Source: Salminus brasiliensis (lineage: Eukaryota > Chordata > Actinopteri > Characiformes > Bryconidae). Taken from it: a DNA stretch of 64,000 nucleotides. Position 1 is the first letter of the stretch. The number at the start of each line of letters is the position of its first letter. A model generated the notes under the pieces. The model searched no databases. It saw only the letters and a program-made list of their open reading frames with translations, and was not told the DNA's origin. Location: contig NC_132880.1 of NCBI RefSeq assembly GCF_030463535.1, positions 43,899,842-43,963,841 on the forward strand. Reading direction: 5' to 3'. Shown piece by piece: positions 4,143-63,695 of this stretch. A program made the position numbers and the translations under genes.

Positions 4143-4804
4143 TACACTATATGTCCAATTGTTTGTGGACACCCCATCTTATGAATGCATTCACCTACTA
4201 GGACTCTCTAAAGCAGGTAAACATAAACCTATTGGCACCATGCTGCCTACTGCTAGATGTGGACTAGAGGGGCATAAAGCCCCCCAGAATTGAGCTGTGG
4301 AAGAATTGTGTTCTCTGGAATGATAGTGCTCCGTCCAGAACTTTCAGGACAAGTTGGGGGTGAACACATTTTAGATGATACATTTTGTTATCGTGATGCA
4401 CAACATTCTTTAGAATATGCTTTTCTAATATTTTGAGGATATTGTTAGTGCTTAAAGAACACTGATCAACTACACATTTCAGTACAGTGTAATTAGAATG
4501 GTTTATTTAGATGAAAAAAACAATCACTGTATTCAGAACAGGAGAGTATCTGAATAGTAGGTTGTAAGAATGTCACTTATAATAAATGTAATATTGGGAT
4601 AAATATTGTGTATCATGAAAAATGCATTTAAATATTGTGAAAAAGTAGTTAGGAATTCAAACCTCACAGTAAGGTTGCATAATTATTATATAAAAAGTAA
4701 GCAGGCCATTAGTTATCCAAACAAAAGCAGTATAAACTCTTAATACCTTTGACAGAACAACAAACAATGAATGAGCAAGTGTCCAAATACTTTTGTCCAT
4801 ATAG
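4143..4804 (-). mobile_element. CACTATA-type MITE split by a hAT-like MITE
   Basis: The outer element runs from CACTATATGTCC at the left to CTTTTGTCCATATAG at the right, in reverse orientation. Between about 4366 and 4730 it is interrupted by a second repeat that aligns, reverse-complemented, with the element at 19687-20010 (shared blocks include ATTGTGTATCATGA and AATATTGTGAAAAA). The inner element is therefore younger than the outer one. Confidence 0.7.
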
Positions 4805-5267
4805 CAAAAATGACAATTGAGATCTTGCGAGTCAGCAGTTCTGTCTTCTCAAAAAAATGGTCAAGTGTTCAAAGACTCAGTTTGATGAGCAGACTGAACG
4901 ATGGTATAGTTGGCTGCTGAGGGCACTGAAAAACATATGTGAAGATATGAGAGCTTTGTAAGAAACACATTTTTATTGTCTTTGGAAATCTTAAATAGGA
5001 CAGTCTTTGTGAATATTTAAATACACTGATTAAGAGGTATTAAATTGTATAGAAAGCAAGTGAGAAATGGTGGAGGAGGTTCATTTTTAGTGCCCAGGAA
5101 CAAACTAGTGTGTTATTTTAAGTCTACTTTGTGAAGAGGTGATGAACTAACAAAGAAGTTGGTTTAAAACAGCTTAGGCTTTTATAAGAACAGCTAACAA
5201 AACCCAGTGTAACAATACATACATTTCTCAGAGAAAACATGTTTTCTGACCAGTTGGCAAGCCCAAA

Positions 5268-22000: not shown

Positions 22001-23709
22001 GGTATGGAACAACAAGCAGACGCCTGTCTTGTGCATCGCAGGGCCCAGTCGTTCGCTGAAAGGCTTCGGCTAGGCATCGCCGTGATCCATGGTGAAGCAC
22101 AGGATGCTGAATCGGATCTTGTGGATGGACGGCACTCTCCACCTACTGTGAAAAACATGGGAGCCATCCATCCCAGTCTGGAGATACCATGTGAGCACCT
22201 TAGTTCTCTAGATTTGGACTGTGACTTCTGTGCCTCTCCTCTCACTGGAAGATGAATCTGTTTTTGTAAATCTCTTTGTTGTCTCCCACACAGTGCTGAT
22301 CCCAAAAGAAAAGCCTCCAATAACTGTGGTGGGAGATGTAGGTGGCCGAATTGCTATCATTGTGGTGAGTTTCAAATCTGGAGGTTTTCGAGGTAATGTT
22401 CAGGCGTCACATCATTGGAATTTGCAGCTCTGATATGATGCCTTAGCACATTGAAGCCACGCTTTCACACTTTCACATTAAATGTCATGTTAAACAGGAT
22501 GTGACCTCTTCAGCTTGACACACCCATAGCTCAGGTCTGAATCATGTTTTAAAAATACACTCTTGGAATGGAAACAACTGTACAAACACAGACATTCTGC
22601 TTTTCTCAAATTCCTATTTTTACTAGCTGTCTATAAGCTCTTGCAGGTAAACTGGTCAGTCAGTCCTATCAGGGTTTCAGTTACAGTTAAAGCAATATTA
22701 TGTAGCGATTTTACCTTAAAGTAGCAGCTTCAGAATGCTGTTGATGCTCCACTCACTGTAGAAGAGAGAATGACATCTCGCTCCTTATCGTTCTGGGCAG
22801 GAACAGTGCTACTGTACTATGAAACTTTGGTGGGGCTGCATGAAACCTCTCACCAGAACTGCATAATGCTTGCGTAACCAGAAGCATCATTGGAATTTGC
22901 AGCTCTGATATGATGCCTTATCACATTGAAGCCACGCTTTCACGCTATCACATTGAATGTCATTTTAAACAGGATGTGACCTCCTCAGCTTGACACATCC
23001 TGTTTAACATGACATTCAATTACATTTTTTGTGTAAAAATCCTGTAGTATTTCTCGACCACCTCAGTCCACATGCTTCTTTTGCAGTTTTGTATCCTTGT
23101 AGTGTAATTTGTGATTTGCAGCAGTGTTGTAAAAGAGAATTACACTTCCCAACTGTAGGGGGAGCCCTTAAGCAAAGAAATTTAATTCATTCTTAAAGAC
23201 TTTAAATTCCATATAAAGGCATGTTTGAAGGAGGCTGTATGTTCCTATATAGACATTTTATCCAGACTTCTGTAATGTAGTTGCTAAAAACACCTTTTAT
23301 TGTCTCATCCATAACTTTGAATCCAAGTTTCAATGTTTTTCTTCCCCCTCATAGGATGACATTATTGATGATGTGGATAGTTTTCTGGCAGCAGCTGAGA
23401 CACTGAAGGAACGAGGGGCCTACAAAATTTTTGTGATGGCTACTCATGGAATCCTCTCTTCTGATGCACCTCGCCTCATAGAGGAGTCTGCTATTGATGA
23501 GGTCTGTATTAGAACCTAATTTGCAAAACCACAAAAAACATCATTTTTTGTCATTTGATTCTTTTTACATGGTATTTAAATGTCCTGACGAATGCACTAA
23601 TAGAAATGCTCCAAAATGACTTGAAATAAAACCTTTTACACTGATTTCCATTGATCGTTCTACTATATTGAAAGTTCTTTTTCTGTGAAGTTTCCGTTTT
23701 GGAGGTACG

Positions 23710-32015: not shown

Positions 32016-43358
<11,343 letters not shown>

Positions 43359-44130: not shown

Positions 44131-44715
44131 TACAGTCCTCGCTGGGATCCACTGCTTTATCTACTGTGTACAGCTGTCATAGCGTCACGAGGAGTAAAAC
44201 AAATATGTGATGAAAATAAACAAATAAATAAATAAATTACTGGCCCGTGGAGCTTATCGTTAACACATCTTTATTTTCACCTAGTGACAGTATTCATATA
44301 CAGCTCAGTTATGTATGAAACAGTACTTAGGTCAAAGACAATGGAATAAAAATACCACATAACAAAACACACAACAGGCAATATAGAAGGACAAATGCAA
44401 CACAGTTAGAACAAAATGACTGACATTTATAAAGAAAGTGCTGTAAATGTTGCATTTGAGGGCTATGTACAGATCTTCAGATGGACAGTGCTGTGAAAGA
44501 AGTATTCCCAGCTCTCAGCTCCTGTTCCAGATCAATCAACTACATTTATAATATACAACAATGCTGCGTTCCATTACGCTAAAGACTTTACTGGTTTACT
44601 GATTTTAAGACGAATCTAACCAAACTATGTCACAATTTTAATATTCCAGGTCAGCGTTGTTAGCATTTTCCCATACCAGTTGATAACAGCGCATTTCAGT
44701 ATTTTGGGGGCGTGG

Positions 44716-44754
44716 GGGCGCTGCTCGTTTTCAGGAACTGCTCGAAAACCTCCC
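44716..44754. other. 39-bp exact copy of FAM83G exon 1
   Basis: This segment (from GGGCGCTGCTCG to CGAAAACCTCCC) is identical to 43193-43231 inside FAM83G exon 1 and in the same orientation. It lies 1.4 kb upstream of the FAM83G start codon and ends 6 bp before a SINE. Confidence 0.85.
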
Positions 44755-44760
44755 TGGAGT

Positions 44761-45065
44761 GGGGCAGTGGTGGCTCAGCAGTTAGAGCGCCGGGCTATCG
44801 ATAACAGGGTTGTAGGTTCGATTCCCGGGCTTGGCAAGCTGCCACTGTTGGGCCCTTGAGCAAGGCCCTTTACCCTCTCTGCTCCCCGGGCGCTGGAGTT
44901 GGCTGCCCACCACTCTGGGTGTGTGTGTGTACTCACTGCCCCTAGTTTGCTAGTGTGTGTGTGTGTGTTCACAACCTTCACTACCACAGATGGGTTAAAT
45001 GCGGAGGACACATTTTGCTGTGCAGTGTACACTGTACAGTGACAAATACGTGCACCTTTAAGTTA
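44761..45065 (+). repeat. tRNA-derived SINE, near complete
   Basis: The head GTGGCTCAGCAGTTAGAGCG and the B box GGTTCGATTCCCG give an RNA polymerase III promoter. A CACTCTGGGTGTGTGTG tract follows, then CAGATGGGTTAAATGCGGAG and a tail ending ATACGTGCACCTTTA. A weak reverse frame across it is not a gene. The about 300 bp after it hold no feature that I recognise. Confidence 0.85.
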
Positions 45066-45949
45066 AGTAGAAGTTGGACAGTATGACAGTATGAGGGTAC
45101 GTATGATTTAATGAGACACAAACAGATACAAGTTAATAAACTGCTAATAAACTGTATAATACTACTGCCTTTATTACTGTTGATGTGCAGTGCGGCCATC
45201 TTGGATTGTGAACTCGTGGTTGGTGAGGCTCATGAGACTTTTCGAGTAGGAAATCCAATCTGAGGACATCCAGTTGAAATTTCATACTTGGAACTCCAAC
45301 ATAAAAATCCGACATCCCAAGTTCAAATGGAATGCAGCATAAAGACAACACGGGTAAACACATTATACAGCTTTTTAAATGACGGTACATTAATTGATTA
45401 ATTGAACCTATATCACCCAAATAGAAAAAGCATTTGCCTCCTTAGCATCTAACATCCCATCCACACGTATCAGGCTATTTTTAAAAACAGAGGTTTTTGT
45501 CTCTGTTGGGCCTCCCGTCCACATGACAGCGCTGTGTTTGCTCACTAAAAAGGCTGTCGTGAAAAAATTGTTGTGTAGACTGAGAAACCGTTTGTTGGCT
45601 GAATCTCAAATACCTCCTAACTCCCTGTATAGTGAGCTACAAAAGTTATAAAACTACAACAACCACACGCAGATAGCCCTAGATTTCAGATTTCCGCATA
45701 TCAATAAATACTGTTGTAGTACAGATATATAATGCTCTATTAATAGAATCTGTTATTTTGTGACGTGCAGAGTACACTACATAGGGAGTAGTGTGTCCTT
45801 TGAGATGAAACCTTCCATGTGGTGTTCTGATGTCTCTCTTTATGAGGTACTGTCACCCATACGGGGCTAGCATGCAAGCATTTATGTCGCTGTGTGGACG
45901 AAATTAGTTTTAAAAAACAAAGGGAGGAAAATCTATTTTTTAAATCAAC

Positions 45950-46988: not shown

Positions 46989-61223
<14,235 letters not shown>

Positions 61224-61516
61224 CCCGCGACCCCCCTGTACAGCAGCTGGAGCAGCTGGAAACCGATCTACAGTAAAGGAGTAGGTGTAGGTGAGAGGAT
61301 CCACAGCCTGGCAGACCCAAAAAGAGGAGCGTGCTGAGAGAGCAGCAGTGATAAGAGCAGAGCAGGAGGGAGAGTCCAATTCAGCACAAGCAGGCGAAGA
61401 GACTGTCCACTGGTGCAGAGCAAAGCTGGCTGTTAGATACAACACCAGCACATGAGACAGACTAAGTGGGTGAGAGAGTGTGAGTGTGAAAGAGAGTGGA
61501 AGAGGAGGAGGGGAGA

Positions 61517-61520
<4 letters not shown>

Positions 61521-61586
<66 letters not shown>
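61521..61586. repeat. (GA)n tract upstream of GRAP
   Basis: A pure GA run of about 65 bp lies 300 bp upstream of the GRAP start codon, in the likely 5' UTR or promoter. On the GRAP strand it reads (CT)n. Confidence 0.95.
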
Positions 61587-61588
<2 letters not shown>

Positions 61589-61589
61589 T

Positions 61590-62414
61590 AGGAGGCAGGG
61601 AGGGGGTGGCAGTTCCTGTCTTTGCATTCTCTAACACAAGGAAATACAGCAATATGAGAAACAGGAAAACTAGAAAAAAGAGGTGAGAAGGAAGAAGAGA
61701 GGAACATGTGAGAAATTTCCATCACTCCGGGAAGTGGAAAACTCCTCTAACCGTTTATGATGGCAAAAAAACTATATTTATAAACACTGTAAAATATCCA
61801 CATTTTATGGAAAATTAGTTTTCCTTTTAAAATGACACATTCTCTGTAAATGAACAAACCAACTGTTATTTTAATAGGTATGCCAATACTTACAAATTAC
61901 ATGAATTAATTAATTTATTAATTAATTTACTCTATTAGACTAAATACTATTTTTTTGCTTTCAGATTTACCTAAAATTACAAGGAAGCTGTAATTAAACA
62001 TACACATAATAATATAATTTTACATACTAGCAATTTATTTTTTTTGCTTTTTAATTTTAGGGTAAATTTAATTTGTCATCTGCCAAACGAAAGCTGCAAA
62101 ATTAAAGTAAAAAAAAATTACAGAAATTGTCCTGAATTATTGACAGAACATCTTCAAAAAAGTGACAACACTACTGCAGCAAACATATACATCTCTCCAA
62201 TTGGCTCCTGGCACCATCTGTTTGCATACGGGGCGTGTCCTCCTCACTGTCCGTGTGTTGTCGTTTCCCCCAGGCTACCATCTCTATGGTGTCCTTCCAT
62301 GTTTTATATCTTTGGTTGACTGCCTGGTGTCAGTGCTGTAGGCTGTAAGAGCAGGTTGCCACTTTCTGTGTTAATGAGTCTGGCTGTGCTGCGCTGGTTA
62401 TATATATATATATA
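61590..62414. other. Spacer upstream of GRAP
   Basis: AT-rich sequence with no gene seen, ending in a short (TA)n tract (62400-62414) that served as the target of the Tc1 element. Confidence 0.5.
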
Positions 62415-63690
62415 CAGTGGGGGAAAAAGTATTTAGTCAGTCACCAATTGTGCAAGTTCTCCCACTTAAAAAGATGAGAGAGGCCTGTAATTGACATCAT
62501 AGGTAGACCTCAACTATGAGAGACAAAATGAGAAAAAAAATTCTGAAAATCACACTGTCTGATTTTTAAAGAATTTATTTGCAAATAATGGTGGAAAATA
62601 AGTATTTGGTCAATAACAAAAGTTCATCTCGATACTTTGTTATATATCCTTTGTTGGCAATGACAGAGGTCAAACGTTTTCTGTAAGTCTTCACAAGGTT
62701 GGCACACACCGTTGCTGGTATGTTGGCCCATTCCTCCATGCAGATCTTCTCTAGAGAGATGTATTGGGGTTGTCGGCGGGCAACACGGACTTTCAACTCC
62801 CTCCAAAGGTTTTCTATGGGGTTGAGATCTGGAGACAGGCTAGGCCACTCCAGGACCTTGAAATGCTTCTTACGAAGCCACTCCTTTGTTGCCCTGGCAG
62901 TGTGCTTGGGATCATTGTCATGCTGAAAGACCCAGCCACGTTTCATCTTCAGTGGTTTTGCCAAAATCTCACAATACATGGCCCCATTCATTCTTTCATG
63001 TACACGGACCAGTCGCTCTAGTCCCTTTGCAGAGAAACAGCCCCAAAGCATGATGTTGTCACCCCCATGCTTCACAGTTGGTATGGTGTTCTTTGGATGC
63101 AAGTTGCGAGTTGTGTTTGTACCAAACAGTTCTACTTTGGTTTCGTCTGCCCATAAGACATTCTCCCAATACTCTTCCGGAACATCCAAATGCTCTCTAG
63201 CAAACTTCAGACGCGTCCGGATATGTACTGGCTTAAGCAGGGGAACGCATCTGGTACTGCAAGATCTGAGTCCCTGGTGGCGTAGTGTGTTACTGACGGT
63301 AGCCTTTGTAACGTTAGTCCCAGCTTTCTGCAGGTCATTCACTAGGTCCCCCCGTGTGGTTCTGGGGTTTTTGCTCACCGTTCTTGTGATCATTTTGACC
63401 CCACGGGCTGAGATCTTGCGTGGAGCCCCTGATCGAGGGAGATTAGCAGTGGTCTTGTAGGTCTCCGATTTTCTGATTATTGCTCCCACAGTAGATTTCT
63501 TCACACCAAGCTGCTTGCCTATTGCAGATTCAGTCTTTTTTTTCTCATTTTGTCTCTCATAGTTGAGGTCTACCTATGATGTCAATACAGGCCTCTCTCA
63601 TTTTGTTAAGTGGGAGAACTTGCACAATTGGTATATACATACAGTGGGGAAAAAGTATTTAGTCAGTCACCAATTGTGCAAGTTCTCCCA

Positions 63691-63695
<5 letters not shown>
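62415..63695 (-). mobile_element. Tc1-like DNA transposon with abnormal right end
   Basis: The left terminal repeat starts CAGTGGGGGAAAAAG after TA and reads inward to GAGACAAAATGAG. The right repeat mirrors it (CTCATTTTGTCTCTCATAG...) but stops at about 63631 (GCACAATTGG), missing the last 35 or so bases. Then, at 63642-63695, a direct copy of the first 54 bases of the left terminus follows and runs into (TA)n. The element sits inside a (TA)n tract on both sides, as expected for TA-targeting Tc1. Confidence 0.85.
62575..63504 (-). pseudogene. Tc1 transposase, N-terminally truncated
   Basis: A 309-codon frame covers most of a DD34E transposase: the second part of the DNA-binding region ([32 protein letters not shown]), first Asp in [11 protein letters not shown], second Asp in [11 protein letters not shown] and Glu in DLNPIENLW. 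There are 34 residues between the second Asp and Glu, as in active Tc1. Upstream the frame continues through [12 protein letters not shown] into AAG/AAA codons and then the terminal repeat without an in-frame ATG, so the first helix-turn-helix and the start codon are deleted. The listed start is a GTG. Related sites are about 340 aa. It is probably inactive, but young because no internal stop is seen. Confidence 0.9.

Follow-up and report, generated by a model that had tools for sequence, protein, structure and literature searches.

How did a short piece of coding sequence from a FAM83-family gene come to lie, base for base, beside a SINE outside that gene in Salminus brasiliensis? We examined the locus in a window of 64,000 nucleotides (64 kb; C3:43899842-43963841, in an assembly of 1,066,335,885 bases, 1.07 Gb, in 103 contigs), whose own numbering is used below unless contig positions are given. 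Exact comparison across the window showed that positions 43193-43231 and 44716-44754 agree at 39 of 39 bases in the same orientation, 1,523 bp apart, exactly as the first-pass annotation had claimed. No third exact copy of the 39-mer was found on either strand of the 64-kb window. To the left, beyond one mismatch, the bases TG also agree, extending the similarity to 42 bases, while none of the next eight bases to the right brings donor and copy into a match. A search of the whole assembly with the 131 bases at 43150-43280 gave two places, the source itself (131/131) and the copy (42 bases, 98%, one mismatch, at 44713-44754), repeat counts from this search being lower bounds. When 20 sequences of 64 kb were simulated with an order-3 model, their longest direct repeats within 5 kb came to 14-18 bases; as the maximum was 18 bases, chance is excluded for the 39-base identity, which the annotation had rightly called negligible as an explanation. 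Its worry that the copy might mislead short-read mapping looks minor, because the shared 39-42 bases are far below the length of ordinary short reads.

The features of the donor and its gene neighbourhood are as follows.

43193-43231, minus strand: donor, 39 bases at about codons 43-55 in the first coding exon of a FAM83-family gene, matching the copy exactly.
43191-43232, minus strand: donor in its reading frame, 42 bases or 14 codons.
42867-43358, minus strand: open reading frame with the first FAM83 coding exon, starting at 43358; the exon probably ends near 42909 (by eye).
40338-40748 and 34233-36443: further open reading frames bearing the FAM83 domain, at profile positions 139-197 and 237-273 of 274.
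48100-48342: SH2 domain of a GRAP-like neighbour (E 2e-5).
61056-61721: SH3 domain of the GRAP-like neighbour (E 2.8e-8).
Near 47 kb: candidate C-terminal SH3-like reading, by eye.

The product of the frame at 42867-43358 matches the Pfam SACK1 profile (the FAM83 domain) with an E value of 7.2e-40 over residues 17-151, which include the donor codons. Profile positions 198-236 of 274 were not located, and the FAM83 exon had no PDB relative by sequence at E 0.001. We take the gene to be FAM83G and its neighbour to be GRAP, names that we assume from the families and their neighbourhood. The copy falls between these two genes, some 1.36 kb upstream of the FAM83 start codon. Polarity is clear because the coding version lies inside a conserved domain: 43193-43231 is the source and 44716-44754 the derivative. 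The reading frame of the donor exon remains open. A second copy of the same SINE, in minus-strand orientation at 42449-42692, flanks the first FAM83 coding exon on its other side, leaving that exon between two inverted SINEs. This inverted pair (42449-42692 on minus, 44761 on plus) was considered as a cause of local template switching and set aside, as no specific evidence pointed to it.

At the acceptor site, the copy, its junctions and the SINE follow each other directly.

44706-44720, plus strand: left junction, GGGGGCG-T-GGGGGCG, the second GGGCG being common to the donor.
44716-44754, plus strand: acceptor copy, in the same plus-strand orientation as the donor; in the reading direction of the SINE it is antisense to FAM83.
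44755-44760, plus strand: six-base filler TGGAGT between the copy and the SINE head.
44761-45060, plus strand: full-length SINE copy with a tRNA-like head (by eye) and a CACCTTTA tail.

The sequence of the left junction is TATTTTGGGGGCGTGGGGGCGCTGC, in which the second GGGGGCG continues into the donor's GGGCGCTG. GGGGGCG occurs four times in the 64-kb window on both strands, and two of these occurrences stand at the left junction, one base apart. GGGCG is a possible microhomology of five bases that may have served for annealing at the left junction, and the doubled GGGGGCG may be a trace of slippage or re-annealing. At the right junction the copy ends in CCTCCC, followed by TGGAGT and the SINE start GGGGCAGTGGTGG, with no shared bases evident, unlike the GGGCG at the left; the six bases of TGGAGT are the 6-bp gap to the SINE head at 44761 described by the annotation. 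The source of TGGAGT cannot be assigned because the motif is too frequent in the window (19 times on the plus and 15 times on the minus strand, counting the filler itself and a further occurrence within the SINE at 44894). By eye, no poly(A) or poly(T) tract of at least five bases was found at the ends of the insert (44706-44765), and a run of four T lies further left at 44702-44705.

Matches to the SINE were found at 12 places in a contiguous block of 263,841 bases, with 6 of the 12 reaching the head. Rfam and ARAGORN made no call on 44600-45200. The eight longest of the 12 places were aligned and the four shorter ones dropped, and a column was counted where at least four other copies were present and agreement reached 70%. 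On this basis the SINE at 44761 carries 8 private differences in 273 columns against the seven other copies, four at CpG and four at non-CpG positions. The five other aligned copies that bear a head begin with GGGGCAGTGG or close to it, from which GGGGCAGTGGTGG differs slightly. The tail of the SINE, ...GACAAATACGTGCACCTTTA, recurs at 50686-50711 on the plus strand with 25 of 26 bases and without the SINE body. The stretch preceding the tail there is what we take to be the 3' UTR of an L2-type LINE, and 50686-50711 is likely a remnant of the LINE partner of this SINE. The shared tail points to an L2-like partner mobilising the SINE, where the L2 clade label is our assumption.

The background rate of similar repeats was surveyed in the same 263,841-base block, by counting direct repeats no more than 5 kb apart, with 25 or more exact bases, that passed filters for complexity and for a middle 20-mer with at most two copies; three inverted repeats were left out of the count. 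Nineteen direct repeats passed, and in 3 of the 19 the 30 bases to either side both showed ungapped identity no higher than 30%, namely the 39-base pair described here, a 53-base pair and one repeat at the ends of a Tc1-like transposon. The 53-base pair (C3:43764764 and 43765146; 4764-4816 and 5146-5198 of L009), 382 bp apart with dissimilar flanks and near a larger local duplication, is a candidate for another repair-mediated copy. A 26-base pair at contig positions 43847409 and 43848965 had one dissimilar flank (0.30) and another at 0.60. Such scars perhaps occur at a rate of one or two per 264 kb, as judged from one small sample of one chromosome, and a repeat pair of this kind is uncommon but not unique. 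Short paired or local duplications are likewise short dispersed local direct copies. Other repeats in the window are direct repeats of 36 and 22 bases at 22410-22943, on one diagonal, separated by 475 bp and unlike in their left flank; a tandem array at 1-1499 with a unit of about 78 bases and many nearly identical copies; and a Tc1-like transposon at 62420-63694, whose open frame of 332 residues matches the transposase domains HTH_Tnp_Tc3_2 and DDE_3 and whose ends are repeated in both orientations.

Local templated insertion by DNA repair, taking SINE-coupled and SINE-independent events together, is very probable as the class of process that made the copy. Within it, we give a probability of about one half to the copy being templated filler formed at the 5' junction of the SINE during its integration. 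LINEs and SINEs both integrate by a nick in the target and reverse transcription of their RNA by LINE machinery. Here, the machinery of the partner LINE would have carried out both steps for the SINE, so that the opposite genomic end, ...TTTTGGGGGCG, was left with a free 3' terminus. Through roughly five bases, GGGCG, this terminus could have annealed to the FAM83G exon nearby, been extended by about 34 bases and then released, and would finally have been joined to the end of the completed SINE cDNA with a few extra bases (TGGAGT). The outcome would be a 45-base "5' extra" stretch, 39 bases of which come from the local exon. We infer the timing with SINE insertion, the direction of priming and the polymerase, which may be Pol theta-like or the LINE enzyme. 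The distance of 1.5 kb favours priming of the left end on local DNA over a transcript, which would be possible in principle.

The SINE-coupled version is preferred because of the position of the copy and the behaviour of fish L2 systems. The copy lies exactly between the target DNA and the intact SINE 5' end, six bases from the head, and SINE heads are sparse, the head being present at only 6 of the 12 SINE places of the 263,841-base block. The tail common to the SINE and the LINE-like remnant at 50686-50711 counts on the same side, as does GGGCG at the left junction. If copy and SINE were of the same age, an unchanged 39-base stretch would be unsurprising, because the divergence of the SINE is low (four non-CpG private differences in 273 columns). 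Extra nucleotides are present at the 5' end of about 40-50% of zebrafish ZfL2-2 LINEs (about 40% according to PMC2666801), and when ZfL2-2 was made to insert in cultured cells of chicken and human, many of these extras proved to be derived from the flank (PMC4245944, PMC2666801). The present locus resembles them in having extras between the target and the 5' end of the element, often flanking DNA in the published cases, in a fish system that may likewise be L2-type: an intact head follows the copy and six bases, and 39 of the 45 bases come from flanking DNA. It differs in that the element is a SINE with a 45-base filler from 1.5 kb away, whereas the published flank origin is from cultured cells. 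The published extras are described as "several" nucleotides and as rare in human HeLa cells (PMC4245944, PMC2666801), beside which 45 bases from 1.5 kb away are long and tell against SINE coupling.

The close rival, somewhat less probable, is a repair-mediated duplication unrelated to the SINE, in which a double-strand break next to the SINE, whether this was already in place or yet to insert, was mended through synthesis-dependent strand annealing or theta-mediated joining, with copying of the exon 1.5 kb away. A donor within 5 kb, the absence of poly(A) and possible microhomology and filler are the profile of the 39 proximal cases inspected by Pace et al. 2009 (PMC2671141), and a second isolated pair, of 53 bases, is present in the same 263,841-base block. 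Yet a break unrelated to the SINE would have fallen within six bases of its first base by coincidence, with 6 of 12 places reaching the head; this argument covers this SINE only, and other repeat families would dilute it. The published set counts 824 such duplications in human and 80 in zebrafish, inside transposable elements only and under a stricter length cut (PMC2671141). As described there, the likeness covers a short local duplication, a donor within 5 kb, no poly(A), exons as possible donors and, at junctions that here are only candidates for it, microhomology or filler, while the set needs at least 50 bases and insertion inside a transposable element, against 39 bases at the edge of a SINE read from one genome here (PMC2671141). 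The donor at this locus is on the same chromosome, 1,523 bp away, and no poly(A)/T of at least five was seen by eye at the ends of the insert. The copy therefore works like these duplications and is not filed among them because its 39 bases fall below the 50-base cut, a detection threshold of the published pipeline and not a mechanistic limit. Templated sequence insertion polymorphisms of class 2 are likewise DNA patches copied from elsewhere at a break, but the patches described come from distant regions and the copy here is local (PMC5110952). Of the marks of class 1, LINE-mediated insertion of cellular RNA, neither polyadenylation at the insert nor a target-site duplication of seven bases or more was found at this locus.

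No word of at least seven bases is common to 44621-44760 and 45049-45130, so no target-site duplication of that length spans copy and SINE, and the lack of one enclosing both speaks against SINE coupling. TTTAAT and CAGTAT are shared as 6-mers, but at a distance from the junctions. By eye, the SINE head is immediately preceded by AGT, and the same three bases follow CACCTTTA without a gap (45061-45063); the 4-mer GAGT was not found in 45049-45130. AGT is a possible 3-bp target-site duplication of the SINE alone; if real, it would mean that the copy is no part of the SINE insertion, in favour of SINE-independent repair, three bases being weak either way. Among the other head-bearing copies, read by eye, c1 has TAAAAC on both sides plus one extra base; c2 (189032, minus strand) is flanked on either side by AGATGGATGGA and has 10 extra bases ahead of its head, which would fit SINE coupling but could also be a microsatellite; and c3, c6 and c7, with no clear duplication, give no normal pattern for the family. 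The age of the SINE was tried as a separator of the two versions, since a SINE much older than the copy would point to separate events, and is powerless, because 8 private differences in 273 columns predict about one change or fewer in 39 bases. Neither SINE age nor target-site duplication separates SINE-coupled from SINE-independent repair. The annotation had proposed templated filler during break repair or template switching during SINE insertion; both fit and the class is uncontradicted, so that the proposal is partly supported.

Improbable in our view is a template jump, in which the reverse transcriptase went from the SINE RNA onto a second RNA bearing the exon. Template jumping has been offered, as unpublished data, for ZfL2-2 5' extras in DT40 cells, as far as PMC2666801 reports it, but the insert is SINE-sense and FAM83G-antisense on the plus strand, which requires an antisense transcript. 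Orientation rules out FAM83G mRNA as the target of a jump from the SINE cDNA, with the SINE sense on the plus and the gene on the minus strand: the reverse transcriptase would copy the second RNA in the SINE sense, so FAM83G mRNA is impossible as second template. An assembly or library artefact is very improbable, as the 263,841-base block is without any N, 103 contigs for 1.07 Gb suggest long reads, and filler bases stand at the junction where a contig-end overlap would be clean. We give as little credit to functional reuse, in which selection kept the copy as a regulatory element or 5' exon and which would accord with its zero divergence; zero changes in 39 bases are also expected of a young neutral copy with the divergence of the SINE, and no minus-strand open frame of at least 75 residues runs over the copy, which appears, as judged from the bases, to bear no sign of function.

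Whichever version of repair holds, the finding is real and ordinary. A wider reading, which we consider unlikely, is that SINEs inserting in this fish lineage pick up tens of bases from adjacent DNA, and so also from coding exons, at their 5' ends as a matter of routine; if so, SINE heads would be a recurrent place where short exon fragments are scattered. The locus is a small, clean natural example of a known process, a short templated filler beside a fish SINE, and it is mainly useful as a trace left by the joining of SINE 5' ends or of breaks nearby.
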